64,000 bases of DNA from Pegea sp. RAD2-039 (lineage: Eukaryota > Chordata > Thaliacea > Salpida > Salpidae): assembly GCA_034620365.1 (NCBI GenBank), contig JAQGEQ010000179.1:1054001-1118000 (forward strand), given 5' to 3'. Within the stretch, counting starts at the first letter, position 1. Each line of letters starts with the position of its first letter. Under the pieces are notes generated by a model. That model was not told where the DNA came from, made no database searches, and saw nothing but the letters and a program-made list of their open reading frames with translations. Shown here one piece after another: positions 36,442 through 64,000 of the stretch. Both the position numbers and the translations under genes were made by a program.

Positions 36442-36982
36442 CGAGACAAAATGACTTCGAGAACAACTTTCAGAAATTATATCTCACCACAAGATGACTC
36501 ATTCTCACTAAGATGACGTCATCAAGTTGTGAATGAGTTTTAGATGATGTAAACTAAATAGATGAACAGCCACTGACAGTTTTGTTAGTTTATCAGTTAA
36601 TCATTTAAAATTATTTTGAGTAAATTTGATTTTCTTACAAGCCATCATCAAATCAACCATCAAAGCTTCATGGGTTGTTTCGAGTCTTTAAACTACTATC
36701 GAGTAAAAAGCTGGATGTTGTAAGATGGATTGAAAGTCAGGATCACTTGATGTTGATGAAACTTGTAATTTTGTTAAATATAAATTCTTCTTATTTATCT
36801 CATCAAGTAGACAAATTTTAAGGTTTCAATCAAATTTATTGAATGATTTGAAGAATGATAATTTGATAAAGAAGCAGCATATTGAATAAAAAGGTTCATC
36901 TTCAAACGATGGAAAGATTCTAATTAATTTCCAAATTAAATAAATAGAAGATTTAAGGAGGTAGCTAAGGATCAAAAAAAGA
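36442..36982. other. spacer between OCRL and 14-3-3
   Basis: About 540 bp upstream of 14-3-3 and downstream of OCRL on the same (minus) strand. It contains an exact TGACGTCA near 36,512, upstream of the 14-3-3 start, where it could act as an ATF/CREB-type promoter site. No exon is recognised. Confidence 0.5.
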
Positions 36983-39900
36983 TCACTTTTCATACATTCC
37001 ACATCTAAGGAAGAGCTCAACAAAGTCCACAGATTTTGATTTCCAATTTTGAGAATGAATCATCGAAGTAGGAACAGGGAGGATCAAGCAACCAAAGATC
37101 TCCGCTGAAGACAAAAAGATTAAGAAGAAGATTAAGATCTGAGAATAATGAAAAGGAAGATGAAAAGATGGACACAAAATCTCACCAATCAATTTGTGAG
37201 TTAACCCGTTGCTTGGGTAATTTGGAAGTTCTCTTAAATAAGTGATCAGATATTGAAAGACATTTTGATGTCGGCTTGGAAGTCTCTCAATCACCTGTCA
37301 ATCACGTGATTAGTGATGTACACACGTGATTAGCTGACCTTCTACCTCGTTTGCTGCATCTTCAGGATCAGATGAAGATAAAGCATTGATACAAGATTGA
37401 AAGAAAACTCCTGGGATGATAGGTTTCGGGAATGATTCGATAAGGATCAAAAGAGCTTCAGCAACTGAATGAGAAGATCCCGGAAGTGAGAGATTTGTGT
37501 ACGAAGAAGATGAATCCATAAATTCCCGGATGGCTTGCACTTCTTCATGAAGTCCAGGTTGTTGAAAAAGATCTTCTTCTTCTTTACATTTGACGTAGAG
37601 ATGATCTATTAACATCCAGAGCTCTTTAGGAACTCCGACTTGCGTCTGAAGATCTTCTTCATTAACTTCGGTGAATTGTTGGATTTCAGCGGGAGTGTAA
37701 GTACTAATTGGCCGCGTCATTTGACATAAAACATCGATGTCTGTTCCGAAGCAGCTTGGCAAATAGTTGGCGGTGACAGATATAAAGAAATCTTTCCCTG
37801 AAGAATGAGATCAGGTGATAAGAGCATCATGTGAAAATGAGGATCAGCTGAGATCAGATAAAGATTAAATAAAGGTTAAATAAAGATTAAGTAAAGATGA
37901 AGATCAGATATATTTCCCACCATTATTAAGATGAAGAATTAAAATATCGTCTAAAATATTTTGATTTTTTGGTAGAGATCCAAAATTCTCTCTTGTTATT
38001 AAAATTTGCATTTCAATTTCAAAACTCTCATCTGTAAACAAACGATGATTCTACTATAAAATGTTGACATCATTATTGAGATGACGTCACTATTATATGA
38101 TAAAGCCAACAGCATGTGATGACGTCATTTACCTGGCATTAATAGCGCACTCTTATGAATGATATCAAGCCACAAAGCAGATATCCGATGTGAATCCGGC
38201 TTTGCGACAAAATTAAATCGACAAGGGGATTTCCCCGTGTTTGTAATCGTTACGCTTCGTTGAACTTCCATCGAATATTTCACAGATCCGAAATCAACCT
38301 GAAGTCAGTTGTATAAACAGTGATGACGTCATAAACGCAATAGTACCATATGTCGACTGATGACAGCCGAAGGAAGAGTTTCATTTTCCATTTTATCGAG
38401 GCGACGCCATTCTTCTTCAAGAACTTTTTTGTATCTCACTTCATCAATTACTTTCACCTGTATCACATGATCAGTTGACGTCACAACACACGATCAGTTG
38501 ACATCACAACACACGATCAGTTGACATCACAAAACACGATTAGATGACATCACAACACACGATTAGATGACATCACAACACACGATTAGCTGACCTCACA
38601 ACACACGATTAGTTGACGTCACAACACACGATTAGATGATGTCACAACACATGATTAGCTGACATCACAACACACGATTAGATGACGTCACAACACACGA
38701 TTAGTTGACGTCACAACACACGATTAGTTGACGTCACAACACACGATTAGATGACGTCACAACACACGATTAATTGACATCACAATACACGATTAGATGT
38801 CACAACACACGATTAGATGACGTCACAACACACGATTAGATGACATCACAACACACGATTAGTTGACGTCACAACACATGATCAGTTGACGTCACAACAC
38901 ACGATTAGCTGACGTCATAACACACGATTAGATGACGTCACAACACACGATTAGTTGACGTCACAACACACGATTAGTTGACATCACAACACACGATTAG
39001 CTGACTTCACAACACACGATTAGTTGACGTCACAACACACGATTAGTTGACATCACAACACACGATTAGATGATGTCACAGCACACGATTAGCTGACGTC
39101 ATAACACACGATTAGTTGACGTCACAACACACGATTAGCTGACTTCACAACACACGATTAGTTGACGTCACAACACACGATTAGATGATGTCACAACACA
39201 CGATTAGTTGACGTCACAACACACGATTAGTTGACGTCACAACACACGATTAGATGACATCACAACACACGATTAGCTGACGTCATAACACACGATTAGT
39301 TGACGTCACAACACACGATCAGTTGACGTCACAACACACGATTAGATGACGTCATAACACACGATTAGTTGACGTCACAACACACGATTAGCTGACTTCA
39401 CAACACACGATTAGTTGACATCACAACACACGATTAGATGATGTCACAGCACACGATTAGATGATGTCACAACACACGATTAGTTGACGTCACAACAAAC
39501 GATTAGTTGACGTCACAACACACGATTAGTTGACGTCACAACAAACGATTAGTTGACGTCACAACACACGATTAGATGATGTCACAACACACGATTAGAT
39601 GACGTCACAACACACGATTATTTGACGTCACAACACACGATTAGATGACGTCACAACACACGATTAGCTGACGTCACAACACACGATTATTTGACGTCAC
39701 AACACACGATTAGATGATGTCACAACACACGATTAGATGACATCACAACACACGATTAGATGACGTCACAACACATGATCAGTTGACATCACAACACACG
39801 ATTAGTTGACGTCACAACACACGATTAGTTGACATCACAACACACGATTAGATGATGTCACAAAACACGATTAGATGACATCACAACACACGATTAGATG

Positions 39901-42900
39901 ATGTCACAACACACGATTAGCTGACGTCACAACACACGATTAGATGACGTCACAACACACGATTAGCTGACGTTCACAACACGTCACAACACACGATTAG
40001 TTGACGTCACAACACACGATTAGATGACGTCACAACACACGATTAGATGACGTCACAACACATGATCAGTTGACATCACAACACACGATTAGATGACATC
40101 ACAACACACGATTAGCTGACGTCACAACACACGATTAGATGACGTCACAACACATGATCAGTTGACGTCACAACACACGATTAGTTGACGTCACAACACA
40201 CGATTAGTTGACATCACAACACACGATTAGATGATGTCACAACACACGATTAGATGACATCACAACACACGATTAGATGATGTCACAACACACGATTAGA
40301 TGATGTCACAACACACGATTAGTTGACGTCACAACACACGATTAGATGACGTCACAACACATGATCAGATTGACGTCACAACACACGATTAGTTGACGTC
40401 ACAACACACGATTAGCTGACGTCACAACACAACACACGATTAGTTGACGTCACAACACACGATTAGTTGACGTCACAACACAACACACGATTAGTTGACA
40501 TCACAACACACGATTAGTGATGTCACAACACACGATTAGTGACATCACAACACACGATCAGTTGACGTCACAACACACGATCAGTTGACGTCACAACACA
40601 CGATTAGTTGACATCACAACACACGATTAGATGATGTCACAACACACGATTAGATGATGTCACAACACACGATTAGTTGACGTCACAACACACGATTAGA
40701 TGACGTCACAACACATGATCAGTTGACGTCACAACACACGATTAGTTGACGTCACAACACACGATTAGCTGACGTCACAACACAACACACGATTAGATGA
40801 CGTCACAACACATGATCAGTTGACGTCACAACACACGATTAGTTGACGTCACAACACACGATTAGCTGACGTCACAACACAACACACGATTAGTTGACGT
40901 CACAACACTTGATTAGTTGACGTCACAACACATGATCAGTTGACGTCACAACACACGATTAGTTGACGTCACAACACACGATTAGTTGACATCACAACAC
41001 ACGATTAGATGACGTCACAACACATGATCAGTTGACATCACAACACACGATTAGATGACGTCACAACACACGATTAGTTGACATCACAACACACGATTAG
41101 ATGACGTCACAACACACGATTAGATGACATCACAACACACGATTAGTTGACGTCACAACACATGATCAGTTGACATCACAACACACGATTAGTTGACGTC
41201 ACAACACACGATTAGTTGACATCACAACACACGATTAGATGACATCACAACACACGATTAGTTGACATCACAACACACGATTAGATGATGTCACAACACA
41301 CGATTAGATGACATCACAACACACGATTAGTTGACGTCACAACACACGATTAGTCGACATCACAACACACGATTAGATGACATCACAACACATGATCAGT
41401 TGACGTCACAACACACGATTAGTTGACGTCACAACACACGATCAGTTGACGTCACAACACATGATCAGTTGACGTCACAACACACGATTAGATGACATCA
41501 CAACACACGATTAGTTGACGTCACAACACATGATCAGTTGACATCACAACACACGATTAGTTGACGTCACAACACATGATTAGTTGACGTCATAACACAC
41601 GATTAGATGATGTCACAACACATAATCAGTTGACGTCACAACACACGATTAGATGACGTCACAACACACAATTAGCTGACGTCACAACACACGATTAGAT
41701 GATGTCACAACACACGATTAGATGACATCACAACACATAATCAGTTGACGTCACAACACATGATCAGTTGACGTCACAACACACGATTAGTTGACATCAC
41801 AACACATGATCAGTTGACATCACAACACACGATTAGTTGACGTCACAACACATGATCAGTTGACATCACAACACACGATTAGTTGACGTCACAACACACG
41901 ATTAGTTGACATCACAACACACGATTAGATGATGTCACAACACACGATTAGATGACATCACAACACATGATCAGTTGACGTCACAACACACGATTAGTTG
42001 ACGTCACAACACACGATCAGTTGACGTCACAACACATGATCAGTTGACGTCACAACACACGATTAGTTGACGTCACAACACACGATTAGCTGACGTCACA
42101 ACACAACACACGATTAGTTGACGTCACAACACATGATTAGTTGACGTCATAACACACGATTAGATGATGTCACAACACATAATCAGTTGACGTCACAACA
42201 CACGATTAGATGACGTCACAACACACAATTAGCTGACGTCACAACACACGATTAGATGACGTCACAACACACGATTAGATGACGTCACAACACACAATTA
42301 GCTGACGTCACAACACACGATTAGATGATGTCACAACACACGATTAGATGATGTCACAACACATGATCAGTTGACGTCACAACACATGATCAGTTGACGT
42401 CACAACACACGATTAGATGACGTCACAACACACGATTAGATGACATCACAACACACGATTAGATGATGTCACAACACACGATTAGATGACATCACAACAC
42501 ACGATTAGTTGACGTCACAACACACGATTAGTCGACATCACAACACACGATTAGATGACATCACAACACATGATCAGTTGACGTCACAACACACGATTAG
42601 TTGACGTCACAACACAACACACGATTAGTTGACGTCACAACACATGATTAGTTGACGTCATAACACACGATTAGATGATGTCACAACACATAATCAGTTG
42701 ACGTCACAACACACGATTAGATGACGTCACAACACACAATTAGCTGACGTCACAACACACGATTAGATGATGTCACAACACACGATTAGCTGACGTCACA
42801 ACACAACACACGATTAGTTGACGTCACAACACATGATCAGTTGACGTCACAACACACGATTAGATGACGTCACAACACAACACACGATTAGTTGACGTCA

Positions 42901-45809
42901 CAACACATGATTAGTTGACGTCATAACACACGATTAGATGATGTCACAACACATAATCAGTTGACGTCACAACACACGATTAGATGACGTCACAACACAC
43001 AATTAGCTGACGTCACAACACACGATTAGATGACGTCACAACACACAATTAGCTGACGTCACAACACACGATTAGATGATGTCACAACACACGATTAGAT
43101 GATGTCACAACACACGATTAGTTGACGTCACAACACATGATCAGTTGACGTCACAACACATGATCAGTTGACGTCACAACACACGATTAGATGACGTCAC
43201 AACACACGATTAGATGACATCACAACACACGATTAGATGATGTCACAACACACGATTAGATGATGTCACAACACACGATTAGTTGACATCACAACACACG
43301 ATTAGATGACGTCACAACACACGATTAGATGACGTCACAACACACGATTAGATGACGTCACAACACACGATTAGCTGACGTCACAACACACGATTAGATG
43401 ATGTCACAACACACGATTAGATGATGTCACAACACACGATTAGATGATGTCACAACACACGATTAGTTGACATCACAACACACGATTAGATGATGTCACA
43501 ACACACGATTAGTTGACATCACAACACACGATTAGTTGACGTCACAACACACGATTAGTTGACATCACAACACACGATTAGATGACGTCATAACACACGA
43601 TTAGTTGACGTCACAACACACGATTAGATGATGTCACAACACACGATTAGATGATGTCACAACACATGATTAGATGATGTCACAACACACGATTAGATGA
43701 CGTCACAACACACGATTAGATGATGTCACAACACACGATTAGATGATGTCACAACACACGATTAGATGATGTCACAACACACGATTAGATGATGTCACAA
43801 CACACGATTAGATGACGTCACAACACACGATTAGATGACGTCACAACACACGATTAGATGACGTCACAACACACGATTAGCTGACGTCACAACACACGAT
43901 TAGATGATGTCACAACACACGATTAGATGACGTCACAACACACGATTAGCTGACGTCACAACACACGATTAGATGACGTCACAACACACGATTAGCTGAC
44001 GTCACAACACACGATTAGGTTATGTCACAACACACGATTAGATGATGTCACAACACACGATTAGATGACGTCATCAACTTACGTAAATTGTAAACAGCGA
44101 GCTAATTGGTTTGTGATCACTCAACCGTAATGATGGATGATCACGATAATTGATTTGTATGACGTCATCACCGCTACTTCCATCTTTGAATGATCGTTCT
44201 TTCCATAGGATCCGATCACACCAAGCAGGTGCTCTACACTTTTCACTTGTGTCCCAAATATCCGTACCAGGATCATATTTGTAAGTCGGCCGAAAATTCA
44301 AACTTCCTTCTTGAAAACCTCCAAACACGTGACACTTTGCCCGTTCGCGTCGCAACTATCAAATTTTGACGTCATCAACTCAGTTACAGCGATCATGTGA
44401 TCACCTGATCGTATTGGAAAAGATTATGAAATTTTTGGTCATGTGACCATTGACGTATAGTCGAAGCTGCGATGCCATCGATTCGATAGTTTAAATCTCC
44501 CATCCAAAACAAAATACTGTTAATGACGTCATAGTAATCGAAAAACCAGATGATGACGTCATTAACTTACTCATGATCGTAAATAGAAGAAGTATAAGAT
44601 GAGAATACCATTCTAGAGCTGATATCATGAAAATCCTGATTCCTTCTAGCAACATATTCAGTGTGAGCAGCTAAATGTGAATTAATTACACAAATTGATG
44701 AATTGAAACATTCAAATCGAATCCCAACTCCTCCCTTATTACCCTGTACAAATTTGATGACGTCATCAACATCGAGAAGAACTTACTGACCATTTTGCCG
44801 AGAAGTCCAGTTCCAACCGAACATGTTGAAATATTCTTCAAATATTTTACATGATTTTCAGTTGTAAGACATAATAACATCATCCCAATTAAACGGATCA
44901 CTTTCACCTATTGAATATGACGTCACAAGACATCACGCCAGATGACGTCATCACTTACAACTCTGTAATTAGTGGGTAAAGATTTAAGAACTTGTTTAAT
45001 CCACTCTGGTTCTTTATTAGATTCAGCAAATACATAAGATCCTTTGGATAAATCCAATTCCTGAAATCTACATCAAACAGTAATGTCAGTATCGCGATGA
45101 TGACGTCACCACCATCTCACCCGATAAAGTAAAGATCGGGAGGATCAGGATTTGTCATCAACCAATCAGATAAATCTTCACTTGGTGATTTTCCGTTTAC
45201 ATTCCATGAACCGATAAACACACTACAAGTGATGACATCAGTGACGCAAGTGTAATGACGTCATCACATACTTACTTGATTTTCTGTTTGTTTGTATATT
45301 CATGCTGTCGTTTGATGAGAAACATTTGAAGTAGCTCTTCCCTGTTTATTTGCTCCTTGACATAAAATGCAGATCTGCTTTGATTGGCTTCTACTGGTCT
45401 GTTGGTGACGTCATTAGTGATGACCTCATAGCATAAGTATGCTATACCTTTGATGTAGAATCTGTTGATGATCGAGACTTGTCATCGAGTAGGATTTGTG
45501 TTTGATGATGTCATCATTGATGTCATCAGATGAGGTAGACAACATGGAAGTGTGTCTTTTAGATGAATGTGGATTTGAAGATTGATCTTCTTCTTGTTCA
45601 TCTTTATTAGCTCTTTCAGGATAGACTCTTGGTGGGAGATCCTTGGATGTTGAGATACCTCCAGGAGGTGGGGGAGCTTTTCTGAAAGATTTTGGAAGAT
45701 CAGGAGTTTCTGTGATTAAAAATTCCGAATTTGATAAAATTGGATCAAACTCCTGAAGGATTAGAGATGACAAAAGATCTTCAGTGACATCATCTACATT
45801 TGATTCCAT
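36983..45809 (-). CDS. OCRL: OCRL/INPP5B-type inositol polyphosphate 5-phosphatase
   Basis: Removes the 5-phosphate from PI(4,5)P2 and related lipids on endosomes and Golgi. Fourteen exons (45809-45448, 45398-45276, 45222-45121, 45067-44959, 44907-44791, 44743-44571, 44516-44405, 44355-44083, 38457-38347, 38298-38133, 38031-37921, 37797-37346, 37294-37186, 37104-36983) sum to 813 residues in frame. Catalytic motifs: FIGSWNVNGKSP, FQELDL, INSHLAAH, WMGDLNYRID, PAWCDRILW and LSDHKPIS. The ASH domain (VDFGSVKYSMEVQRSVTITN) and RhoGAP-like domain (NYLPSCFG, PKELWMLIDHLY, LFQQPG, NHSVAE-like HSVAEALLILIESFP) follow in the OCRL order. The N-terminus is short and I see no PH domain. Intron 8 is a 5.6-kb minisatellite. 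Nearly every intron carries TGACGTCA or a one-base variant. The catalytic exon has a small insertion, GDDVIQ, encoded by the palindrome. OCRL and INPP5B cannot be distinguished here. Confidence 0.94.
38463..44065 (-). repeat. 5.6-kb 23-bp intronic minisatellite carrying TGACGTCA
   Basis: About 240 copies of a 23-bp unit fill OCRL intron 8 (38,458-44,082) almost end to end. On the plus strand a unit reads ACACGATTAG[TAC]TGACGTCACA plus ACA. Most units contain the full palindrome TGACGTCA. Others carry TGACATCA, TGATGTCA or TGACTTCA. Five-base (ACACA) slippage and higher-order blocks of several units recur. On the gene strand each unit contains ACTAATC or a variant, which resembles a branch point. 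Confidence 0.97.
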
Positions 45810-48500: not shown

Positions 48501-51500
48501 TTCGTCTCTTTTCTTATTTTGTTGTAATGGATTTTAGATTCAGAATTTTTATTATTTTTATGCAGTCTTAGTATTTTTTCTATATTAATTATTATAAACT
48601 GTGATACTTAATACCTTTTCGTTATCTTTTTGCTCAAATTGTTTTTGTTTGCTATAAAAGTTGTATAATTTGTTATTTAAAGCCACGAATTAAATGAAAT
48701 CACGAAATTTAAAAGCAAATTTTGTGTTTCCTGATTTTTTATGCCTAAATATACTTTCCTTAAAATAAAATGAATTCTAAAGATGATTTGAGTACAATAG
48801 ATTTTCAAATTTGTTAAATTTGTATAAATTCATCATCTTATAGATAGACAGATTTTAAACAAATTCGTTATGAAATTATGAAAAAGAAATTTTAAATATC
48901 AAAAATGTTTTTAAAACAAATAGCCAAAAGATTTTTGAAAATAGACGCAAAGGACAAAATTGAAAACAAAGCTGTATATATCTGTAAATAATTATTAAAA
49001 TGAAACAAGTAAATATGTTTAAAACATTTCTTATTAATTGGAAATAGATTGCTTACATTTAGGTTTGTGAAATATTCAAATAATATCAAATTTGTAAAAA
49101 AAATTCTTCTTTTATCTTTTTAAAATCAGAAAATCAAATGATTTTCCTTTTTACAAGATTTTAAAATATTCTGATTATTTTATTTCAACAACTATTTTTT
49201 ACTCCCTTCAGTAAAAAGCATTGAAATCAAAATTGTTTGTAGATTTTTAAAATTTCTATTTTTATGAAATTTTATTTAATAACTTTGCTGAAAAAACCTT
49301 GGAAATTAAACAAATATTTTTTACTTATTTATTGAAAAAAGTATATTAGCATTTTGCTAATTATTTTATATTTATTATACACGTATTAGAAAATATTATA
49401 ATAAAACGATAGTAGCAAATACAATGTATCTATTATGGAGTTATCATCATATTAGTATTACTTTTTTATTATATATTTATATCATTGAGATAAACTTAAA
49501 CTATTTATATCGATATTATCTGTATATATTTATTTATATTTAAAATTGATTTAAATGAGATAGTTCTTACTTTATGTAGAATTTATTTATTGAACGTTTT
49601 AAACGTTTATTTCTAAATGTTTAAATGAGGTTTTCTTTAAGAAAGTTTCTTATGAATTGCTATAAAAGCTTCTAAAAAAAGATAGTTTTGATTAAAATAA
49701 TTTGTCCATCTTTTTTTTGAAAATGTTTTTAAACTTTGATTTTAGAAGATTCAATTAAGAATTATCTTCAAAATGTTCAATATTTGACCGTTTTTTTTTA
49801 TTAATTTTGTTATAATATAATTTTGAACTTTTAAAAAGTTTTTTGAAGTAATAGTTTTTTTCAAATACAAATTTCAATCAACTATTTTTATTGAACTTAT
49901 AAAATTTTGATTATCTAAAATGTTTTTCAACATTTTATTGCATTAATTTGTTTTTTACTTTATAATATTTAGAAAATATTTTAATAGATAAGCTTTTAAT
50001 GGTTTAAAAACAGTTTGATAACCATCAATTGGCTTATATATTAGTTTATAATAACGAACAATTCATCGTAGAATTATTTAAGTTAAAATATTGAAATTTG
50101 AAAAGTTGAAAAAATCTTAATGCGAGAAAATTGAATTTTGAAAAAATTGATTTTCTAAAAAGTTTCAAAATTTTTTTATCGAAATTTGAAGTTTAAAGTT
50201 TCTTTTTCAGATTAAAATTGAGTTTTAAAAAAGATAATAAGTTTGAACAGAAAGAACTTCAGATTTCAGTTTGAAATAAGATAGAAAAGAAGATTTTCTT
50301 CAAATGTTAATTAAATAACGTTCAAAGCTGTTTGTAACCAATTTGTTGTTTTAAAGAAACTTTTTTTGGTTTTGTTGATTCAATTTCTAAGATTAGATAA
50401 TGATATCACAACACGAAGAGAAAACCCAATTTTTTTACATTTCTTATTCATTTAGCAAATAATTTCTAAGAAAAATTTTAATTTGATTTTTGAAACTTTT
50501 TTAATTGCTTTACTTCCAAAATTTATTTAATATTTTTGAAAATAAAGCATAATAAAATTCTCTTCTACTTTATTTAGTTTCCTAACTTAGATTTTTAAAT
50601 TATTCTTTTAATTACTAAAGCAATAAATTGAAAATTGTCCAAAAATAACAAGTTCATAAAAAATGTAAAAGTTGAAAAAGAATTAAACAAAAAATTATGA
50701 AAATTTGAAGATATTTTTCAAGAATTTAATAAGTAAGAAATATTCGAAACTTTTTAATTTTCCGCTAGGTGTCGACAGTGAGTGAAAGTAAATGTGTTCA
50801 CGAGTAAACAGAGATGAAGTTACCGAAGCATGACGTAGCAGAAAGGTCTCGGCATAGAAGCCGTTTGTACACATTAACAACTTTTGAGTAGTACAAACTA
50901 TTTTATTCAATTTTATTCACAAAATTTTGTACTTCATTTGTAGGTTTCAGATTTAATTGATTATTTAATTGACGTAGTTGATGATGTCATCCTTAGATGA
51001 GAGTTTGAAGTAAATTGTTGAGTGATGTAAACTCTAAAACAGAAAAATTTCGATTTAAGTCTAAAATTTAGAAGAAAAATTAAAAAAATATTTATAAATT
51101 TTCAACTAACATCTTATGCAGCAAATTTAAATTTTGTTGATTTAAATTAATTTCATTTACAATAAAAAATAATTTAGATCGATTTCATCAATTATTCAAT
51201 TAATTAATTATCTGAAAATTTTTTAATCATTTTTCAAATTATTTAATTTTTTGATTTCAAAATTTGCAAAAAAAATTGTCAGCGAAACTTCTAAAAATAT
51301 TTTCGACAAAAAAATCCTCATACAAAGATCTTAAGAAAACTTATTGTAAACCGCTAGAAATTTAGTTGTTATGACGACAACTGACCAGTAATTGATGACG
51401 TCACAAACGTTTTTTGCAGCTTTCAATTTAATTCTTAAAAATACTGCAAAAAAACTAAAAATTTTCTTTTTTTTTAATTGTTGTTCTTTTTCATCGCAAT

Positions 51501-51512
51501 TTCAGTTTCAAG
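48501..51512. other. AT-rich intergenic region
   Basis: About 3 kb of AT-rich sequence up to the EVA1C start. Nothing coding is recognised. A higher-GC patch at about 50,770-50,890 has no recognisable product. The first palindromes of the dense EVA1C cluster appear from about 51,396, just upstream of the start codon. Confidence 0.5.
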
Positions 51513-54500
51513 ATGTTCTCATTACGTTATCACTTCCTGTGTTACGTCATCATTGCTCTACTATTTACCACAATCACAATGACGTCATCAGACGACTTTT
51601 ACACAGGTTTATTTTTGTTTCTATTGATGACATCACTAGTTGGTCTTAAAAAACTTTCAATTTTAAATAATTTTTGGTCTTTTTGGGTTTAATTGAGAAT
51701 CTTTCAAAGCTATTGATGACGTTACAGCTCGATGTCGAGTTATGACGTCACAAGCAAACAGCTGATTCAACTTTTACTAAAACTTTGTATGACGTCATCA
51801 AATACCAACTGGCTAATTCGATTAATCATTGGTTGCTATGACAAAAAACGACTGATGGTAACGTCGTTGTTACAGCTTACATCGCGACCATGATGAGAGA
51901 TCGCGTTGCAAGCGCATGCAAGCACCAAACGCTGAAAATTCGATGTCCCACGATGACGACAATTGCAATTCAGGTGATGACGTCACACAGCGCTCTGTTT
52001 TTGCGATTTCGGCGCCAAATTTCACGTTTCGCTGATTTTCGATGATGCATGAAAGTCGAGATGAAGTTCAGCTTCAATGACGTCACAACTTTGAGAGTTT
52101 AAAATCAATTCTGAAGCTTTTGGTGACGTCATCGCTATTTGTGACGTCATCGTAATAATTTTTTGGTGACTGGTCACGGTTGAGTAATTTGTGTAAATTA
52201 AGCAATAGAGCGGAATAGAAGGTCACTGGAGTGTGACGTCATCATTGAAAACTTGAATTTATGACGTCATTTAAGCATGGTGTTTTACAGAACGCGATGT
52301 ATGGAAGAAGATCATCTTCTAATAATCTGTGTATTGGACCAAGTTCTTCTGATGAAGATCAAATACTCAAAATATCAAATTGTGAAGCTAAGACTTCTGA
52401 AATTGTAAGTTGCCAAGCAACCAGCTTCTAAAAAGATTTTTAAAGGTTTAAAAATTGCTTCTTCATCTTATCCAAATCATTATAAATATCTTTTGGGGTG
52501 GTTAGAGATCAACTGATTCATTTCATTTTATGAAATCTATTTTACGTTTTGATCATAAGATCGTGTTCCAAAGATCTCTTTCTAAAATCAAGAAGATTTA
52601 AATTAAAAAAAAAACTTCGATGTAAGAGATTCAACTTTAAAGATCTCGACTTTTCTTCATTCTCAGATTTGTTTATCTTCAAACAACAGTTTTAAGTTTT
52701 TGAAATTAAATCTGAAAATTTGAAACTTTTAACTTTGAAAAGGAAATAATCAAAAACTAAAATTGGATTTCTTGAAGAGCAATCTTCAATTAACTTGATA
52801 TCGTCACGTGATAGTCGATAAAGTGCTCGTGACGTCATCAAATCTGTTGAGTTTCGATAATTTGCTATAATCGATTTTATCTTGAAAAAGATTTATTTAA
52901 AATGGATCGTGCGCTTATGACGTCATTGATCGTGTTTGAGTGCGTGCTTCTCCAAATGGATGTATTTCGTTGGCTCACGTTCGTGACGTCATCATCAATA
53001 GCTTCGAGCGACTTTTCAATTGTCGATTGTTGTGATGACGTCATCAAATTTCCGCTTCAATGAGCATCGTAAATGAAATCTTTTTACCATAACGACCTTG
53101 AGTTGCTGATGACGTATTTTTCGCAATTTAACAAATTTAATGCCAACGCGGCTGTCTGTGATTGGATACTCAAAATGTATAGAAGCAGGCCACGTGGTTA
53201 TCATCTTAATCAGCAATGTTGAAAAAGTTGGCCGAGTTTAGTTGAAAAAACTCCGGCTGAAAGTTTGAACATTTGGAATTAGTTTAATTTTGGCTTTATG
53301 TCAATTTGGCTTTTGTAGGCGATCAAAAAATCTTCTACAAAATATGAGACACACTTAAAACAGATTTTGTGTTCCTAAAGACACTCAAAGTATCTCTCAT
53401 TAAGATTTCAGTTTCTTGGAGTAAATCAAATAGACTTTTTTCATTTTTACCTCTAAATAAAATATTTAAAGATTTGAAACTAATTGATGACTTGAAGATT
53501 ACAAAGTGATGAAGAAGTCTGTGATTTGCTACTACTTCATCTAGTATCATCATAAAAACTTTGATTTAATCTAATTGATTGATCTAAAGTAAAAGAGAAG
53601 AGTTTCATAAAAGGCAGATGAGTCGATTTAGCATCTTCACTTGTAAAAACTCTTCCATGAAAAACATTTTAGAAGGGCGACAAGATGTCTTCAAATTTTT
53701 TTTAGATATTTAGTTGTTGAAAATTGTGACAGGAAAATATCAAAGTTTTTTGCGATTCAACTTTCTTCTCGTTTTACATAATAACTTTACTGTGACGTAA
53801 TCAGTGGTGTGACGTAATCGCTGTTATGACGGTATAACTAATTGAATGCAGAAGACTACGATGGAATGTAATGAGAAGAGGTATTGTGAGCTTCTAGTAC
53901 ATCCTAATGTTTTTGGAGGAGACCCTTGCCCTAATTCTACTGAGTATCTTACAATCACTTATAAATGCCGATTAAGTGAGTTTTTATCATCTTCTGATCT
54001 TTATCTTCTGGTTTTCATCTTCTAACCCTTATCATCAGATCTTTATCTTATGATCTTCATCTTTCTATCTATACTTCTGATCTTTATTTTCTGATCTTCT
54101 AGTTGTAGACGAAATGAAGACTCGTTCAACTTGCTCTGGAACAAATCTTCGTCTTCATTGCCCTCAAAGAATCCAAAATAAAAAGATTCCTTACATCATT
54201 ACCATCTATGACGTTACAAACCTACAAGACGCTGAATGTGACACGAAAACACTTCCACCAACCATGTCATGTGAGATTGACGTCATCACCGCTTACATAA
54301 TGATGACGTAATCGTTTGTAGATTGTGAAGAAGCTCACGAATTTTTGATGAAATTGATTTCAGAAAAATGTCAGAGGAGGACGAGATGCACAATTTTGTT
54401 GCCAGGCGATCTCTGCTACAGTTCCGTTCGCGTCTCTTACGCTTGCTGTAAGTGACGTCATCAGTTACTGTTAATTATTGTGACGTCATCTGTCAATTTA

Positions 54501-57500
54501 TCAATGTTTACTGATGTAAGCCAGTGGGTTGTCACAATAACCGCTAGGTGGCGGTAAAGGGACAGAAAAAGTATTTTTACTCTTTTAACAAATCTAAACT
54601 TTTTTTTAAATTTTTTTTTCGAGAAAAAAATTTTTGGATGAAAATTTTAGGTCGTTGAAAATGGAAGAGAAAAAAGAAAGAACTTTTCTAGACTTCAAAT
54701 TGTTCGTTATCGCGTCCAAAACGCTATTTGAATGTTCTTTAACTTTGTTCTTCATTGAGGTTTTAGTAAAAGCCAGTAGATGCCAGAACACAGTTGATGA
54801 CGTCATCAGTGACAACATCAGCAGTTTGGAAGACTGCAGAAAATGAGAGTTTTTGAATTTTAGTATTGGTGAAATAACAAATGTTTGACGTCATTTTAGA
54901 GTTGTTGTAACAATTGTTGAAACTATTACGTCACGAATTTGCGATAATCGTTTCCCATGACGACGTCCGGTTACTTACTAGATGGTGTGTTCAACCAACT
55001 GTAACAATCACTTGCAAAAGTTCGCGCGTTTCTTGTACACGTGTGTCTTACTACTGAGTGTCAGCTAGTGGATGTTTGGTGAGCAATGACGTTCTTTCAA
55101 GTGTGATGTCATCAGTGAACACTTTTTTCAAAAGTGATCAAAGTTATTACGAGAAATAAGATAAATTTTTGGCCGGAAATCATTCATCTGAAGCATGCAG
55201 ATGTTGAAAAAGTTGTCGATCTTAAAAATATGATATAAGATGACTAATCTTCTTCTGATCTTCTTCTGATCTTCTTTTGATCTTCTTCTGATCTTCTTCT
55301 GATCTTCTTCTGATCTTCTTCTGATCTTCTTCTGATCTTCTTCTGATCTTCTTCTGATCTTCTTCTGATCTTCTTCTGATCTTCTTCTGATCTTCTTCTG
55401 ATCTTCTTCTGATCTTCTTCTGATCTTCTTCTGATCTTCTTCTGATCTTCTTCTGATCTTCTTCTGATCTTCTTCTGATCTTTCTCTGATCTTCTTCTGA
55501 TCTTCTTCTGATCTTCTTCTGATCTTCTTCTGATCTTCTTCTGATCTTCTTCTGATTTCAATATCTTCTTCTGATCTTCTTCTGATCTTCTTCTGATCTG
55601 GATCTTCTTCTGATCTTCTTCTGATCTTCTTCTGATGCTTCTTCTGATTTCTTCTGCTTCTTCTGAATCTTCTTCTGAATCAGGCCAAAAGAAAAACTCG
55701 TTGGGGTAATTGAGAAGCTTAACGTTTTAGTAAATTTACCTGAAGACCACGTTTTCTGCCAAAACAGGCCAAAAGAAAAACTCGTTGGGGTAATTGAGAA
55801 GCTTAACGTTTTAGTAAATTTACCTGAAGACCACGGGATATTTAATTTGACAGAATTTTTTTGTAGATTTCCTGTTCGATTTCCAAAGTCCTTTTTTTTG
55901 CAGCGAAAAAGTGAAAAAATTTTGTTTAAAAAATTTGCAAAAAAAAAAAGGAAAATTCCCGAAAACCACAATTATGCAAATTATTTTTTTCATTTTGTTG
56001 CAAATTTTCTGTAATAGAAAATTGTTTAACCAACCAGAAAGCGACAGTTAAAATTCTTATCATAAAAAGTAATTTAAAAAATTCCGGAAAATTGAGAATC
56101 AAATCTTGTTTGAAATGAGTCGAAAAACGTTAACACTTTTTTCATGTGATACTCAACTTTAGCATGATCAGTGAAGCTGAACGAAGGACTTTTCAGAAGA
56201 GTTAATAATGAAAAACGAAAGATAGAAGTTTTAGAGAATTTTGATGAATAAGCTGTTCACATCTTTTGCTTCTTTTTTTCTTTAGTTTTTGAAAGGATAA
56301 TTTTTTTTATTGATTAAGAATAATTTTGATGAAAACAGTTTTTAAATTTCAAATATTACTTAAAATAGAATTTTATTAAAAGTTAAACAAAAAATATTTC
56401 CTTGAAAAAGATGAAGGTGATGATTAGGTCAACATTAAGATCAGGTGAAAGGGTGAATCACGTGAACATATTAAAGATCAGATAAGATAGATATTAGAAG
56501 AAGATCAGAAGAAGATCAGAAGAAGATCAGAAGAAGATCAGAAGAAGATCAGAAGAAGATCAGAAGAAGATCAGAAGAAGATCAGAAGAAGATCAGAAGA
56601 AGATCAGAAGAAGATCAGAAGAAGATCAGAAGAAGATCAGAAGAAGATCAGAAGAAGATCAGAAGAAGATCAGAAGAAGATCAGAAGAAGATCAGAAGAA
56701 GATCAGAAGAAGATCAGAAGAAGATCAGAAGAAGATCAGAAGAAGATCAGAAGAAGATCAGAAGAAGATCAGAAGAAGATCAGAAGAAGATCAGAAGAAG
56801 ATCAGAAGAAGATCAGAAGAAGATCAGAAGAAGATCAGAAGAAGATCAGAAGAAGATCAGAAGAAGATCAGAAGAAGATCAGAAGAAGATCAGAAGAAGA
56901 TCAAAAGAAGATCAGAAGAAGATCAAAAGAAGATCAGAAGAAATTATTAGTTAAAACTTTTTTTAATGTAGAAAAAATCTGTTTTAGTTAAATTGAACAA
57001 AATAGTTTGAAAAACTCTTAAATCTAATTTTTAAATTAATTCAATTTGTTTGAAAAAATAAAGAATATTTGACATCGAATTGAAGATCAGAGAAGTTTCA
57101 AGACTTACAAGTTCGCTGAGACGTTGTTGATTGAACCATTGAACGATTGCTACAACATAATAAGGACCCCAACAGATGAGGAAAGTGATTGTGATAAAGA
57201 TTGTAACAAGTTGGGATAGACGTTTCGCTCTTTCTAGACTTTTACGAACTAAACTTTTTCGCTGAGGCGACGTAGAAGTTTGCATGTTCCGAAATCCAGC
57301 TGAGCGAAGTTCCGTTTCTACTCAAAACACGAATTGAAACAAATTGATTTTGAAAATGAGTCAGACCGCGCGCTCTTTTAGCCAATTTGCTGATCTTGAA
57401 CGCTATGATGATGAAGCAGATGATGATGATGATTACAGGAAGAATAAAAGTCATCATGAAGGTATAGAAGAGGAAGATCTTTCTCTTCTCTTCTTCCAAG

Positions 57501-60500
57501 ACATTAAAATCGACGCATTGAACAATTTGTTGTTGAGGACAATTACAAGGAAAAGGTTTATACTGACTCACTTCAAACACAAAAGACTACAAAGTGCAAA
57601 AATCAATTGATGATGATTAGGATCAAATGATACTTACAGCTGGGATTGAACCGATAAAAATCTTATTAATATGATTTTCGTTTTTATTCAGCTTTTTCGA
57701 AATTAGTTTTTGTTTTAGTGAATAATTACTCAAGCGGAAAGCGTATAAATAAAGCTGATGATGACGTCACGTAACTCGTCAAGATAACATCATCAGTATT
57801 AGTTTTCAGAAGAAGTTGTTTTTAAATGAAATGTAATTGGTTTAAATAATTTGAAAAATGGTTCTAAGGGATTTGAGATCTGTAATTAAAAATTAATCTT
57901 TAATTTTCAATTTGAAGTTTGATGATGTCACGTGTGACCATGTCACGTGTGATTAAAAAAAAGTTTCAAAAGAGGAAGTAAAATATTGTTTTGATTCTAG
58001 ATTTATATGTGATTTGTAAAAGTTGTTTTTAACAAAATTCACAAACCTCAAATAGAAACTTTGTTAACATCATCTTAAGTTGACGATGTCATCTGATTGT
58101 TTGGAAAATTTTCAAGTTGACAATGAATATTTCAGTCAAAAACAAATTTCATGTTTGGAAAAGCTCCTAAAAATGTTTTGTTTTTCTGACATCATTTTCA
58201 ACTTACTTAGGCTTAGGTATGTTAATTATCCGATTTGATGACGTCACAAAAGCTATATCGTTTAGTTTGAAAGTTGAGTTTTGAAAATCTTTTGGCTTTT
58301 GGAAATTTTAGTTTTAGTTTTGTTGAAAAGAATTTTAATGACTGTTGTGACGTCATCACAAATAAATTGTGACGTCACACCTTAGCGATCGAGGCTGGCG
58401 CTTCAACTGTGTTGTATAGCGTCGATGACGTCATAATAGAATGAAAAGAGACCAGCTACTTTATTATTCGTTTTGTTTTTCTTTTTCATTTAAACTTCAC
58501 TCAAATACAAATCGCAGCAACAATTTTTTTATTGGAATTTTCAGAATTTTTTTTTATTTAAATTTTGTTTTTGTTTTTTTCTGTTGTTTTGATGTCTCTC
58601 ATCTCCTTAGCAACCAAACATATGATTCAATGATAAGTGGAAACATCCTTACAAATCGCTAAGCAACGTCTGTGTCACGTCACATCGTGATGATGACGTC
58701 ATGATTCTTTGTTTGACTTTTAACCTTTTTTCAGTGCCAGAAAAATTTTTGACCAAGAATCGACCCGATCAAGTTTACAAGATTGTTCGAGAATCAACTA
58801 CACCACCATCAACTACGTCATCATCTACTACGCCATCATCTACTACGTCATCATACACTACGTCATTATATACTACGTCATCAACAACGAAATCTTTTTC
58901 AGGTTTGCCATAAAATAAATTGCTTCTTGACGTCATCGCTGTTGTGACATGACGTCATTGCATGTTTTCCATTTCTTCATCTAATGGAAACGTGTAAATG
59001 GCGTCATTGTCATCGTTACCATGGTGACGATCACTACGAATGTAATCAGATGATGATGATGTCATCTTCACTGTTCGTTGAGAGTTCATTTCAATGTAAC
59101 CACCAATCGCTGATGTTGTAGGATTAGTTTTAAAATCTGCTGAAGATGTTATTAGATCGCGTTTCCATTTCACTGTGACGTCATCAGAAACTTTGTCGTA
59201 AGGAAAATAGGTCATTGGAGCAACTGAAAAATAGCGCATGATGATGTCACTAGTTGATGATGTCACTAGTAGATGATGTCATTCACCGTATTCCAATGAT
59301 GATCTAGTTGATGTGGGTTGGTCTTTGTTCTTCATTGGTGTCGGAAAGCGACCTCTGCTGGTCAGCTGTAAATGATGACGTCATCAAAAATTGCTAATGA
59401 CGTTGTCAAGAAAATCACCTGGTCATTAGCTGCAATTATCTGAGATTGGTTTCCTTCTTCATCAGTAACTACAACTGTGATATGATGACGTCGTAACTGT
59501 TGATGACGTCACTAATTTAATGCTTCTTTTCATGATGATGTCACTAACCGTATTTGTCGTTGGTTGACATGTAATGACGTCATCAGTAGCAACGCGTTTT
59601 GGTCGTCGACGGCTTACGACGATAGTAATGAGAACGATGATTGCAATTACGACAAGTGACGTCATACACACGACCACAAGAAGTATGACGCCATCATTCA
59701 CTTGCTTCTTTTCGTTACATTTGGTTTCCATGACAACCGACCTTTGGCATTTGTTCGACACGCGACAACTTACAACTTTAAATTGAGATGACGTCATCAG
59801 CTGTGACGTCACAATTGGCAGCCAGTTAGTGCTCGAAGTTTCTTCAAGACACAAATCTTCTGGATGCTCTATCAATTCTGCACCAGTGACGTCACAAGCA
59901 ATTGTGAAGTTTCTTGTTGAGCTGAAACCGTACAATTTATGATAATGAGGTCATCATAATGTCATCGTAAGACTGACGAATCACATGCAGTTGAAGAAGT
60001 TTGTTGGATCAATAAAGATTTGATCTTAGAAGTTGGGATTTTAGATGAACAAATGTTTGAACAAATTTTTTCTGATCTTGTACAATCTTCTTCACACTTC
60101 TTCTCCTTCTTTTCAATTCCTTTTAAACTTTTTCCGGGACATAATTTACTTAGCTGGTTGTTAGGTGACAAACATCTGTTGAAATATCGATGGTTGTCAT
60201 GGTCACGATGACGTCACGCGCGCTTCACCTTCTAACTTGGAATTTGTTGCCTTGACAATCACTTTGACACTTGGTGACGTCACTCCATGAGCTCCATGAC
60301 GACGTACACGCTTTAGTGACGTCACACTTGGTTACACGTGTTAATTGACAATTGTGATTGGTCGAACAAACCCCTGAAGTCTAATGGCATCATAAAAAGG
60401 TGTTTTGGGCGTTTAGGGTGCTTACTGTGAGAACCCCAGAATGACAATCCCCTCTACAAGCGGTTTTGACGCGAACTTCGAGATTTCCGGAACACGTGAC

Positions 60501-62445
60501 CGGAAATGAACAATTTGTGAACTTCTCGATCAACACGCAGCCTGTTTGGAAACACTCACTGTCGCAAAGTTGCGTTTTAGGGTGATTTGAGGGCAAAAAG
60601 GGCATTTGTTGATCACCTTACTGTTCGACCAGTACAATCCCGAGTGCATGTGACGTCATTAATCGAAGTTTTACTATTTGTTTGTTGCCAGGCAACAGAT
60701 GAAAAAAATAAAAGTAAAAAAATGGAAAAATAGAATTTTGACTTCATTTTCCAATCGTGCTAAAAAGTGATTTCACGTTGATGACGTCACTACAAAAAAC
60801 GAAAACACAAAACAAAACTACAAATGTTGAATAATTGCTGACGTCACTATGACAAAGCTGTAACTGGTTAACTGAAAACTGAAAAATTTAAATTTTTTTC
60901 TAAACTTCTTCAAACCAAAAACTTTGAGCTCTGAAATGTATTAATATTCTTTAAAACTTGCTGATTGGTGATGACGTCACGTGTTGTTGATGATTCAAGT
61001 GCAATAGTGACGTCATCACCGCTATCTCATCTCTACTTCCGTTTTCAATAAATAATCACAATAGACAAATAGTGACATCATCCTATCGACTTTTTAAGCA
61101 ACAAATTACTAATGACGTCATCACTGCAGATACCTTCTCGACAAGAGACAGCGATTGGAGTTCGACTTCGAGTGACAGTGAAGTGATCAGCGCTCACCGA
61201 ATGCCGTCACTTAGCAACACATCGAGTTTCAACTCAACTACGTCATATCTTCTTGCGCAGCTTAACCCTCCTCTTCATTTCATCACCGCAATGATTTCAA
61301 TTATCAACTACATCGAAGGTGTGATGATGTCATCACTTCATGACGTCATAGTTTGCTATTTTTCAGAAAATTTGGATCGTATTCTGATGGTGATCTTTCT
61401 CACTACTACGATCTTTCTCTTTTTTATCGTCATCTTCATCTTCTTCCACTACGAAGCAAATTGTTGTTCAAAGACCCAAAAACGAGAAAACACGAAAAAC
61501 GATGGTAAAGCGATAAGTGTGACGTCACAAGAAGCAGGAGGTGAAACAGAAAGTTTGTTGGGGGCAGAAGAACAAATTCCAGTTAGAAACCGGATGGGGA
61601 GTATCTGGTGGAAACAGCTAAGACGTTTCTGGTGTCAGTCACGGTCCAGTGAACGCGGCACCGAGCTGATGGAGCGAAACTATCGTGTTGTAAATCGTCG
61701 CGATTCAAGTAGCGATGCTGAAAGCGATTTTAATGATGCATTAATGACGTCACCAGCGGAAGGGAAAGATGAAACGCGTTATAGCGCTTTCCCGGTTAGT
61801 TCAAATACTTCGCGTTTTGATGATGACGTAGCAAGCATCTATGAGTTCCCTGATAATCCATCAAGTGTTGTTGCTCTGACGTCACCACCTCCATCAATGA
61901 CGTCACCAACACGCGCTTACACAGCCTCTTTCTTTCCTACAACTGCTGTTGCTAATGGCAACCAACAACGTCTTCATCTATATTCACGTGATCGCGTTCC
62001 AATTGCAATAAATCGACTTTCGCCGCGCGATCCGCCGCCCTTCCCAACTTCTTCACGTTACAAGCCTCATCCCGAAGTGATGACGTCGCAATCGACACCG
62101 AAAATCACTCAAGCATATCCTTACCATCGTACTTCACCTTACGTCACGACAACGGGTCATTTCCGAAACACACAAAGTGTTTTATTACGTCATCATCCCT
62201 CGCACTCAACATTTACTTCTTACGTCACACAGCCTGCAACACCTCGACACGAATCGACCACTTTCGTCTCATTACGTCATCACACGTCACAATCAAATCG
62301 CGATTCGAATAGCGAACGACGTGGCTCCTTTTACGACAATTCGCTGCCGCGCGATTCGCCTCTTTATGAATATTGTCAACGACAAGCCGCAACTGTTCGC
62401 CATGAGCTTCCTGGGACTCGAAATCTCAATCAATACTTCTCCTAA
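51513..62445 (+). CDS. EVA1C: EVA1C-like receptor with two SUEL lectin domains and a long cytoplasmic tail
   Basis: Type I membrane protein; EVA-1 proteins are SLT/ROBO co-receptors in axon guidance. Nine exons: 51513-51606, 51876-51973, 52291-52404, 53852-53975, 54103-54270, 54322-54447, 58735-58902, 61130-61318 and 61367-62445. All phases agree, giving 719 residues. A signal peptide (MFSLRYHFLCYVIIALLF) is followed by SUEL domain 1 (ACKHQTLKIRCPTMTTIAIQ, NAMYGRR, FGGDPCPNSTEYL) and SUEL domain 2 (CSGTNLRLHCPQRI, EKCQRRTRCTILLPG, VSYAC). Then come a Thr/Ser-rich stalk (ESTTPPSTTSSSTTPSST) and a TM segment, ILMVIFLTTTIFLFFIVIF. The cytoplasmic tail of about 330 residues is much longer than in human EVA1C. 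Two minus-strand genes sit in introns 6 and 7. Intron 8 (61,319-61,366, 48 nt) is stop-free and in frame. Confidence 0.87.
55246..55680 (+). repeat. 11-bp minisatellite, arm 1 of an inverted pair
   Basis: About 38 copies of the 11-mer GATCTTCTTCT, nearly perfect, decaying at the right end, within EVA1C intron 6. Read on the minus strand the array is open in several frames (KKIRRRSEED type), which is an artefact of the repeat. Confidence 0.96.
55681..55834. repeat. direct duplication, 84-bp period
   Basis: A block of about 70 bp starting CAGGCCAAAAGAAAAACTCG and ending ACCTGAAGACCACG occurs at 55,681 and again at 55,765, identical by eye. It adjoins the 11-bp array and separates it from the AT-rich spacer. 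Confidence 0.93.
56496..56941 (-). repeat. 11-bp minisatellite, arm 2 of an inverted pair
   Basis: About 40 copies of AGAAGAAGATC, the exact reverse complement of the array at 55,246-55,680. The two arms, each about 440 bp, are separated by about 815 bp and could pair over their whole length as a hairpin or cruciform. The array also lies directly downstream of the GPCR fragment. Confidence 0.96.
57109..57691 (-). pseudogene. class A GPCR fragment (TM4-TM6)
   Basis: Three exons (57691-57638, 57586-57341, 57299-57109) encode part of a rhodopsin-like receptor. KIFIGSIPA lies at the end of TM4, and ECL2 has PFPCNCPQQQIVQC. TM5 is IFLFYTFMMTFILPVIIII. A basic third loop with a 41-nt intron follows, and TM6 ends LICWGPYYVVAIVQWF with the CWxPYY motif. 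The TM6-ECL3 sequence resembles the GnRH/AKH/vasopressin receptor group, but this is only suggestive. I find neither TM1-TM3 (with DRY) upstream nor TM7 (NPxxY) downstream, where the 11-bp array begins. It is probably a relic, unless exons are very distant. It lies antisense inside EVA1C intron 6. Confidence 0.6.
58955..60747 (-). CDS. single-pass receptor with a TSP1-type Cys-rich ectodomain
   Basis: Eight exons (60747-60617, 60558-60435, 60380-60229, 60175-59978, 59921-59549, 59496-59419, 59365-59287, 59223-58955) give 467 in-frame residues. A signal peptide (MKSKFYFSIFLLLFFSSVA) leads a Cys-rich ectodomain with one clear thrombospondin type 1 repeat: SSWSSWSDVTKCQSDC, FQVRRC, KLCPG, KKCEEDC. 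Similar diverged CxxxC modules lie on either side. The TM segment is VILLVVVCMTSLVVIAIIVL, followed by RRRPKR. The cytoplasmic tail is Ser/Thr-rich with a few Tyr motifs (GGYIEM, AIYTFP). I do not recognise an orthologue. The gene is complete and nested antisense in EVA1C intron 7. Since EVA-1 is a guidance co-receptor and TSR proteins are often guidance or adhesion receptors, a related role is possible but not shown. Confidence 0.75.
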
Positions 62446-64000
62446 TGAAGAAGTCATTGTTCAGTCATCTTCGTTTGATGACGTCATCACACTTACCTCA
62501 TCAACTACGTTATCACCAGTTTGATTTCATTTCTTCTTACTCATTCAATCATAGTCACGTGATAGATCGCTTTGAAGATGACGTCATCAACAACTATCTT
62601 ATCAGGTGGTATTTTTGCTGCTAATAAAAAAATTGTTTCCAGATTTTCATATTTTCTGTAAAATTACTCATTTTGATGAATTGAAGAAGCGATGACGTCA
62701 CAACTTCGCGTATTTTGGCTTCCTACCTTTTTCTGTTTTTTTCTTTTTTCTACTTTGTCCATTTGCAGTAAATTATTTGAATTTATTAAAAAATAAGTTT
62801 TTAAAATATTTGAAGTTATTTTAGCATCGAATCAATGAAAAAGATGGCCACAGTTTGTGCCATCGTCTTGTGACGTCATCAACCAGGAATTTTATGCAAC
62901 AGAGTTTTGTTTGAAAGTTTTTAGGGAGTAAATATGAAAGTGAATTGAGAAAGATAAAATTTATTCAAATCTTAAAATTGATGTTCACCCAACCATGAAA
63001 AGTCATATTCAGGGTTTGATTGAAGTCAGATTGAAAAGCGCCATTTCAGTCTTCAGTCTTTCAATCATCTTGATCGAGATTTTTAGCTGAAAACATTTTA
63101 TTCTCACGCTGATGACGTCATTTATTTGAACGCGAGCTAACACATGAATTATTTTTGTTTAAACAAACTCCTGGCTTGGTGTTTAAAAAATGTTAAAGTA
63201 AATAAAAAAGAAAAAAGAAAATTTATTTTTGATAATTTGAAGTTAACTGTGGTTTGTTGTAATTGAAAATAAATAAACTTTTTGAATCTTAAAATTTTTG
63301 AGACTTTAATATCAAATGAAAAAAGTAATTGAAAGTATTCAACGGGTTGAAATACTTCTAAAAACTAAATTCTATTTTAAAGTTTGAAGTTCAGCAAAAT
63401 TGGAGAAATTAAAATAAATCATATAATAAATAAGTGTTATTAGCAAACCATAAAATGTTTTTATAAATTAAAAAATATTAACATGTTAAAAAAAAACTGG
63501 ACATTTTTTCAATAAGTTGAAACTTTACAAATTTTTTTCTCTAATTTTTTATTCTGTAACTAAAAACTTCTTTAATATCTTTTTTTTTGTATTAAATAAG
63601 TTTTTAAATTTTCTACCAAAATTTGTCAGTAAAGATTGAAAATTGTTTTTGATTGAGTAAAAAACGTCACAAAATTTTATATTTCTTTTTGGCATCTTTC
63701 TCACGGTAAGTCGCTAGATAATTTGGCTTTTTTAAATTTTGTCGCTATGGTAATTGTCTGGATAAAAATTTGAAGTCAAGATTATTGAATAAAATTTTCT
63801 CTTTTAGACTGTAACCACCAAATCTCATCAAATGTTGTTATATCAATTGTATAAATCCTATATAAATACAGAATACACTAATTACTTTTAGTTCTTATGT
63901 TCAATTCAGAAATAAATGTTATAATTTTGTTACTATTTGTTTTATTATTTTTTTCTATAGAAGTTCAAATGAAAAATTGAAAATTTATTTAAAAATCTGA
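62446..64000. other. EVA1C downstream region
   Basis: TGACGTCA sites continue to about 63,114, and the sequence then turns very AT-rich to the window end. No exon or RNA gene is recognised. AATAAA-type signals occur but none can be assigned. Confidence 0.5.

Follow-up and report, generated by a model that had tools for sequence, protein, structure and literature searches.

The palindromic octamer TGACGTCA, the full cyclic AMP response element (CRE)/ATF site, occurs 223 times in a 64-kb stretch of the genome of the salp Pegea sp. RAD2-039 (GenBank assembly GCA_034620365.1, contig JAQGEQ010000179.1, positions 1,054,001 to 1,118,000; hereafter, the window), and the excess is real and genome-wide. 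The explanation that we lean to, tentatively and with somewhat less than even confidence, is that a weak, pervasive fixation bias, largely blind to annotation, keeps the octamer abundant, and that the most probable source of this bias is selection for the collective binding of basic leucine zipper (bZIP) proteins in the germ line.

Abundance of the octamer

In 100 dinucleotide shuffles of the window, the octamer appeared 1.16 times on average and at most 5 times. These values agree with a preliminary description of the window, made from its letters, which had put the expectation for an 8-bp palindrome at about one per 64 kb. The 223 copies divide into 142 in a 23-bp tandem array, 54 at 51396-63121, 16 around the array (35.4-45.5 kb) and 11 elsewhere. 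Counted outside the array are thus 81 copies, 70 of them in the two clusters, close to the estimate of about 70, most of them clustered, that the preliminary description had reached by eye.

Across the whole assembly (105.7 Mb, 387 contigs), TGACGTCA is found 27,792 times and the reversed octamer 969 times, so that a genome-wide comparison, proposed at the outset as a check on the claim, comes out far above expectation. The excess is ∼29 times the reversed control genome-wide and ∼190 times expectation in the sampled dense domains, which were chosen by motif content (loci L016-L018 for density), such that absolute densities there are not genome averages. The word TGATGACGTCATCA occurs 1,972 times, compared to 0 for its control. 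The hexamer GACGTC is present in 32,848 copies versus 12,196 for its reversed control, and 84.6% of these (27,792/32,848) lie inside TGACGTCA. All genome-wide counts take in tandem arrays. Array masking takes away 2 of the 47 copies found in fifteen 10-kb stretches (see below), and hence most copies genome-wide appear to lie outside arrays.

Further counts were made on a 214-kb sample consisting of the window and 18 loci (L001-L018), in which L016-L018 were chosen as dense, and on an earlier 196-kb sample (the window plus L001-L015) containing 125 copies of TGACGTCA; tandem arrays were masked ahead of density and neighbour counts. When all 256 palindromic octamers were ranked by z-score in the 214-kb sample, TGACGTCA came first, with 178 copies versus 1.4 expected, and TCACGTGA came second, at 15-fold. 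The latter, an E-box-type palindrome that we take to be a basic helix-loop-helix (bHLH) site, is also over-represented across the genome (4,614 versus 237 for its reversed control).

Copies in coding and non-coding DNA

Our first exon caller was trained on motif-bearing frames and was hence circular, and a motif-blind caller was used in its place. With the switch, dense domains went from 2.68 to 2.26 copies per kb of coding DNA, and exonic copies from 44 to 31. As called by the motif-blind program, which like the first is crude and sets introns and spacers together as non-coding, dense domains hold 31 copies in 13.7 kb of coding DNA (2.26 per kb) and 129 copies in 58.0 kb of non-coding DNA (2.22 per kb). 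The corresponding coding and non-coding densities are 6.57 and 4.82 per kb for the window at 51.3-63.2 kb, 2.50 and 3.07 per kb for L016-L018, and 0.37 and 0.30 per kb (7 and 38 copies) for the fifteen 10-kb stretches.

Exonic copies in dense domains are far more numerous than shuffling would give: 31 were observed, compared to 1.53 after synonymous shuffling (maximum 6 in 300) and 0.26 after shuffling of codon order. Counting only open frames of 150 codons or more leaves 25 copies versus 1.41. Copies in exons called by the first program occupy the two frames that avoid a TGA stop, 21 and 23 times. Most of the motif-bearing frames that were scanned have no Pfam match, and a genome search for a paralogue of a 483-codon frame with seven copies (Table 1), in which motif turnover might be followed, returned only the frame itself.

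Where conserved domains could be aligned, the codons of the octamer stand in place of other residues. In a KCNT-type channel, SDVI aligns without a gap to EELV; in a 14-3-3-like protein, CDVT aligns in the same way to ASPD. Judged by ungapped replacements of this kind, as aligned, in three conserved domains (see also Table 1), at least some copies appear to be products of substitution and to have altered protein sequence.

The preliminary description had noted copies in unrelated genes, in exons and introns alike, and in spacers, and the analysis bears this out. Comparable coding and non-coding densities, together with the extreme excess genome-wide, also back the likeness that it drew to highly iterated palindromes (HIPs). 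It had further listed an intron splicing element among the possible roles. Since coding DNA holds copies about as densely as non-coding DNA, this is not supported as the main role, although one gene leaves room for an extra intron effect. In the adenylyl cyclase gene of L018, a stretch chosen for density, 8 of 11 introns hold 14 copies in 1,203 bp, compared to 5 copies in 1,686 bp of exons. The catalytic domain of this gene was confirmed and its introns were read by hand, with one acceptor two bases short of AG and a change of reading frame inside the 1561-2110 exon. Two of the introns, and the region just past the stop codon, carry short tandems with motif-bearing units of ∼20-23 bp. Introns are clearly denser than exons in this gene, arguing against strict indifference to annotation.

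Neighbours and flanks of the octamer

The half-sites TGAC and GTCA abut exactly (spacing 0) in 178 cases in the 214-kb sample, and each of the spacings 1-8 is represented by one to five cases. One-letter neighbours of the octamer, counted in the 196-kb sample, sum to 111 places versus 43.5 expected. Eleven of the 12 neighbour classes lie at 0.6-4 times expectation, and the twelfth, CGACGTCA, reaches 7.4 times expectation on 5 places only. The largest class is TGATGTCA, the form left by CpG loss, with 37 places versus 9.3 expected; genome-wide, it is found at 11,070 places, compared to 2,673 for the reversed control.

For the 125 copies in this sample, the base after the octamer is a pyrimidine (Y) in 93% of the 250 symmetrised flanks, and the positions beyond it are mostly C, A or T and then mostly A. 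The two flanks vary independently, with 46 copies of type TT, 54 TC and 9 CC, approximately as independent draws would give. A longer symmetric context, described at first as usual, is common, but usual it is not: symmetric extension is absent in 93 of 178 copies and reaches at least 3 bases on each side in 20 of 178. Independent flanks, and the absence of extension in about half of the copies, fit a dimer of two half-site readers rather than a hairpin or an inverted duplication, and the pattern favours recognition by a putative bZIP dimer.

The flanks resemble what we take to be the known preferences of ATF/JDP2-type bZIPs. Proteins of the ATF subfamily recognise GACGT with C or A as the next base (PMC4362205). 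The variant TGACGTAA, reportedly accepted by ATF-type proteins, is enriched 6.8-fold in dense domains (14 copies versus 2.06). Matches to bZIP sequences were found in 12 stretches of the genome.

Flanking homology and tandem arrays

According to the preliminary description, the copies lack flanking homology and are not one dispersed transposon. Indeed, the flanks of sampled copies cannot be aligned with one another. When the window and 18 loci, with tandems masked, were compared with themselves, 2 of 39 aligned pairs contained the motif, and both are gene duplications, one a tandem duplication of an ankyrin exon in L017 and the other a pair of tubulin paralogues. For 26 pairs of adjacent copies 12-40 bp apart, mean flank identity after masking was ∼0.32, compared to 0.30 for random pairs. 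Self-comparison and the aligned exonic replacements together exclude a dispersed transposon, a miniature inverted-repeat transposable element (MITE) or an introner within the sample. Head-to-tail organisation, as in a satellite, describes 142 of the 223 window copies and, short local tandems aside, none of the other 81.

The array that contains these 142 copies looks like a separate, ageing object. Among the 218 of 236 units that were cut at exactly 23 bp (the other 18 were excluded), 127 retain an intact octamer, and CpG loss has left TGACATCA or TGATGTCA in 84. Elsewhere in the window, two 11-bp arrays (55247-55678 and 56496-56942) have units, ATCTTCTTCTG and AGAAGAAGATC, that are each other's reverse complement once rotation is allowed for, and an 84-bp tandem duplication adjoins the array at 55247-55678.

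The ankyrin units of L017 offer a separate observation. Between exon-intron units that are otherwise diverged, a sharply bounded tract of ∼150 bp (∼3290-3440 versus 4806-4957) differs by one mismatch. This tract, which has a motif-bearing intron inside, is probably the product of gene conversion.

Dense domains and base composition

The density of TGACGTCA is strongly patchy. Fifteen 10-kb stretches contain 7, 5, 0, 0, 5, 0, 2, 1, 1, 1, 5, 0, 0, 20 and 0 copies, with a variance nearly nine times the mean. These stretches remain from 20 that were planned, five of the planned coordinates being past contig ends; 14 were picked blind at round coordinates, and L001, also at a round coordinate, lies where copies were known beforehand. 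The blind-picked stretches, without L001, hold 40 copies in 140 kb.

To relate density to base composition, we divided the window and the 18 loci into 105 blocks of 2 kb, excluding any block that had over 600 bases masked. Density climbs with GC content (rho 0.55) and with the observed/expected ratio of CpG (rho 0.61). With the motif itself removed, GC content and CpG observed/expected are 0.28 and 0.66 in empty blocks, compared to 0.37 and 1.05 in blocks with at least 4 copies. The copies are thus clustered in GC-richer, CpG-retaining domains. From this contrast we infer germ-line methylation of the CpG-poor DNA and its absence from the CpG-rich domains. GC and CpG also rise toward single copies, in an analysis where only 10 copies were truly isolated.

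Other words were compared inside and outside the dense domains. The unrelated word GGTTGCTA, presumably an RFX half-site, is enriched 11-fold inside, on 9 copies, and 1.5-fold outside. For TCACGTGA, the values are 15-fold inside and 12-fold outside. The word GGTTGCTA is also contained in the 19-bp unit, TGGTTGCTAACTAGTCACT, of a 162-copy array at window positions 381-3476.

Other features of the window and genome

Features of the window are collected in Table 1. Elsewhere in the genome, matches to cellulose synthase (CesA) and GH6 lie together on one strand of one contig, the CesA matches being partial and below the family's curated cut-off. Joint occurrence of the two points to a tunicate (PMC7464555), in agreement with the preliminary description, which had proposed tunicates as the group to survey.

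The DNA_methylase family has 11 matched stretches in the genome. Seven of them lie in uninterrupted frames of 832-873 codons (C57:819728-826344, C249:1740707-1742050, C32:10146-38173 and C52:9209-10639), two of which, on C57, are in opposite orientation and ∼5 kb apart. The seven look like intronless or element-borne methyltransferases, not ordinary DNMT genes.

Table 1. Features of the 64-kb window (positions in the window; copies are of TGACGTCA)
Feature	Position	Strand	Remarks
Small cluster	5129..5506	.	Three copies; next to a 38-bp array (4993-5141) made up of related words
Pair of diverged tubulin genes	14846-18323		Opposite orientation
Single copy in an inferred intron	15974..15981	.	Between two tubulin exon calls; unmatched in the aligned neighbouring paralogue
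Small cluster	26231..26426	.	Three copies
U1 spliceosomal RNA gene	27018-27169
Reverse-transcriptase fragments	30441-31983		Several frames; probably a long interspersed nuclear element (LINE)
14-3-3-like exon	35695..36126	-	Two copies: 35748 (CDVT; ungapped versus ASPD/NSPE of solved 14-3-3) and 35895 (DDVI; in a segment that solved 14-3-3 proteins lack)
Second dense domain	35748..45413	.	16 dispersed copies flanking the 23-bp array
23-bp tandem array	38464..44078	+	Unit CACACGATTAGTTGACGTCACAA; 142 exact copies
Inositol 5-phosphatase (OCRL/INPP5B-like) exon	44104..44232	-	Copy at 44160; DDVI aligns with KNIT; the aligner put a 9-residue insertion upstream
Dense domain of dispersed copies	51396..63120	.	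54 copies, spread over exons, introns and spacers
Open frame	59468..59935	-	Six copies; coding according to both exon callers; no Pfam match
483-codon open frame	60994..62442	+	Seven copies; no Pfam match

Possible causes of the excess

The collective-binding explanation would work as follows. Acting in the germ line or early embryo, a dimer of bZIP proteins of the ATF/CREB class would bind the sites collectively; such binding would keep whole domains open and unmethylated, and new sites arising anywhere in such a domain would be slightly favoured. A scaled advantage of ∼4 per site would be sufficient. In the 196-kb sample, the motif stands at ∼100 times expectation and its neighbours together at ∼2.6 times, and the log of the ratio, ∼3.7, would correspond to the scaled advantage per site if mutation, bias and drift are in balance and mutation rates are equal. 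In a large population, a value near 4 is about what weak selection or biased conversion amounts to, and a bias of this size could act on weakly constrained exons. We lean to collective binding because GGTTGCTA also gathers in the dense domains and because bZIP sequences are present in the genome.

Several observations weigh against this explanation. Exon density similar to that of non-coding DNA is unexpected for ordinary regulatory sites. The near-equal enrichment of TCACGTGA inside and outside the dense domains means that this word is no mark of the domains; instead of an effect of domains, it supports a genome-wide presence of several words of the binding type. Within the 23-bp array, the octamer's CpG is among the most variable positions, and the octamer is unprotected. 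There was no sign of phasing of the copies, as two of ten periods tried gave p just below 0.05, which chance allows. Finally, a footprint of local conversion or hypomethylation at single copies was considered and rejected, as 231 central-CG octamers of the same composition give a similar gradient; since these matched controls reproduce most of it, we claim only a difference at the level of domains.

A broader proposal, to which we give slightly less credence still, is that TGACGTCA is the first animal HIP: a palindrome recognised by bZIPs that would drive its own fixation, via biased conversion or repair or via collective chromatin binding, and rewrite exons genome-wide. If confirmed, a motif acting at the DNA level would shape protein at very many exonic sites, with consequences for the ratio of non-synonymous to synonymous change (dN/dS), for codon usage and for the reading of 'conserved' motifs.

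The main rival to collective binding, which we consider possible yet distinctly less probable, is a by-product without benefit to the animal, as has been proposed for cyanobacterial HIPs. Mismatch repair or gene conversion, steered by a protein or mark that reads TGACGTCA, would then be biased toward transmitting the octamer to excess. Such a bias would suit a palindromic and exact octamer with little regard for coding status, and a published model gives gross over-representation without selection for function (PMC4390886). The conversion-like tract of ∼150 bp in L017, with its motif-bearing intron, is in keeping with this mechanism, but it is one case. It is generally understood that a break-attracting motif should be lost by conversion, not gained. 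In addition, the independent flank preferences suggest protein affinity, and the unrelated word GGTTGCTA is enriched in the same domains.

Ordinary CREB/ATF promoter or enhancer elements, unusually many and clustered, are an improbable explanation. The sequence is the canonical CRE, and introns outnumber exons in copies in the dense L018 gene. CREs show no promoter-position bias in Ciona (PMC1796609), such that sites far from promoters are unsurprising. Against these points stand a coding density that is about the non-coding density and copies that appear to change protein sequence.

Less probable again, and in our estimation quite unlikely, are M26/CRE-type hotspots of meiotic recombination at which an Atf1-like protein would bind, with frequent conversion as the source of the GC-rich domains. 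In fission yeast, the Atf1-Pcr1 bZIP pair binds M26, a heptamer resembling the CRE, but not every CRE there is a hotspot (PMC9775316). The fission yeast sequence ATGACGTCAT also creates hotspots in budding yeast, but the M26 motif has no significant correlation with natural breaks there (PMC3534124). The dense domains are GC-rich and one conversion-like tract is present in L017, whereas the local rise in GC is mostly matched by control octamers.

Remnants of transposons, introners or expanded satellites can be set aside as very improbable and already contradicted in the sample: the 142 window copies in the 23-bp array, the motif-bearing tandems in two introns and past the stop codon of the L018 gene, and the one 14-3-3-like copy inside an inserted stretch speak for them, but self-alignments involve the motif in 2 of 39 cases (tandem exon duplication, tubulin paralogue), flanks of the 26 adjacent pairs are no more alike on average than those of random copies, and exonic replacements align.

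Comparison with known systems

A full-text search (titles and abstract openings of the papers listed, with most subscription papers outside its reach) found no report of TGACGTCA over-representation in a tunicate or other animal genome, and a full-text literature search with the same restriction on subscription papers found no mention of TGATGACGTCATCA. An earlier survey described no positional bias of CREs near Ciona start sites and a human CRE number of 25% of expected; its species profiles are normalised and hence neither show nor exclude a CRE excess in Ciona (PMC1796609).

The M26/CRE hotspot of Schizosaccharomyces pombe shares with TGACGTCA the ATGACGT core, which a bZIP pair recognises in that yeast. 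M26 became a hotspot through mutation, and some CREs of that yeast are not hotspots (PMC9775316). In the CREs bound by ATF/CREB bZIPs, the octamer is identical, the half-site spacing exact and the flanks of the same R...Y form. The CpG-loss form TGATGTCA, the largest neighbour class here, is also the form most often found in other mammals where a human CRE is altered (PMC1796609). The salp genome differs in its tens of thousands of copies, exons included.

Dense short motifs also recruit a DNA-binding protein to whole domains in the pairing-centre and dosage-compensation clusters of nematodes and flies. Here, in contrast, exonic copies are found at similar density. HIP1 (GCGATCGC) of cyanobacteria is, like TGACGTCA, an octameric palindrome far above expectation. 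It is not regarded as a transposon and is present in coding DNA, little regard for coding status being a defining feature of HIPs. The two differ in that TGACGTCA is a CRE and inhabits a 105.7-Mb animal genome rather than a cyanobacterial one. A DNA methyltransferase that reads a sequence inside the palindrome also belongs to the description of HIPs, and for TGACGTCA the DNA_methylase family matches are at most candidates for such an enzyme. If confirmed, TGACGTCA would be an animal counterpart of the cyanobacterial HIPs, and the origin of HIPs, unsolved to date, would become testable in a sexual, recombining animal, in which selection, conversion and repair bias mark populations and pedigrees differently.

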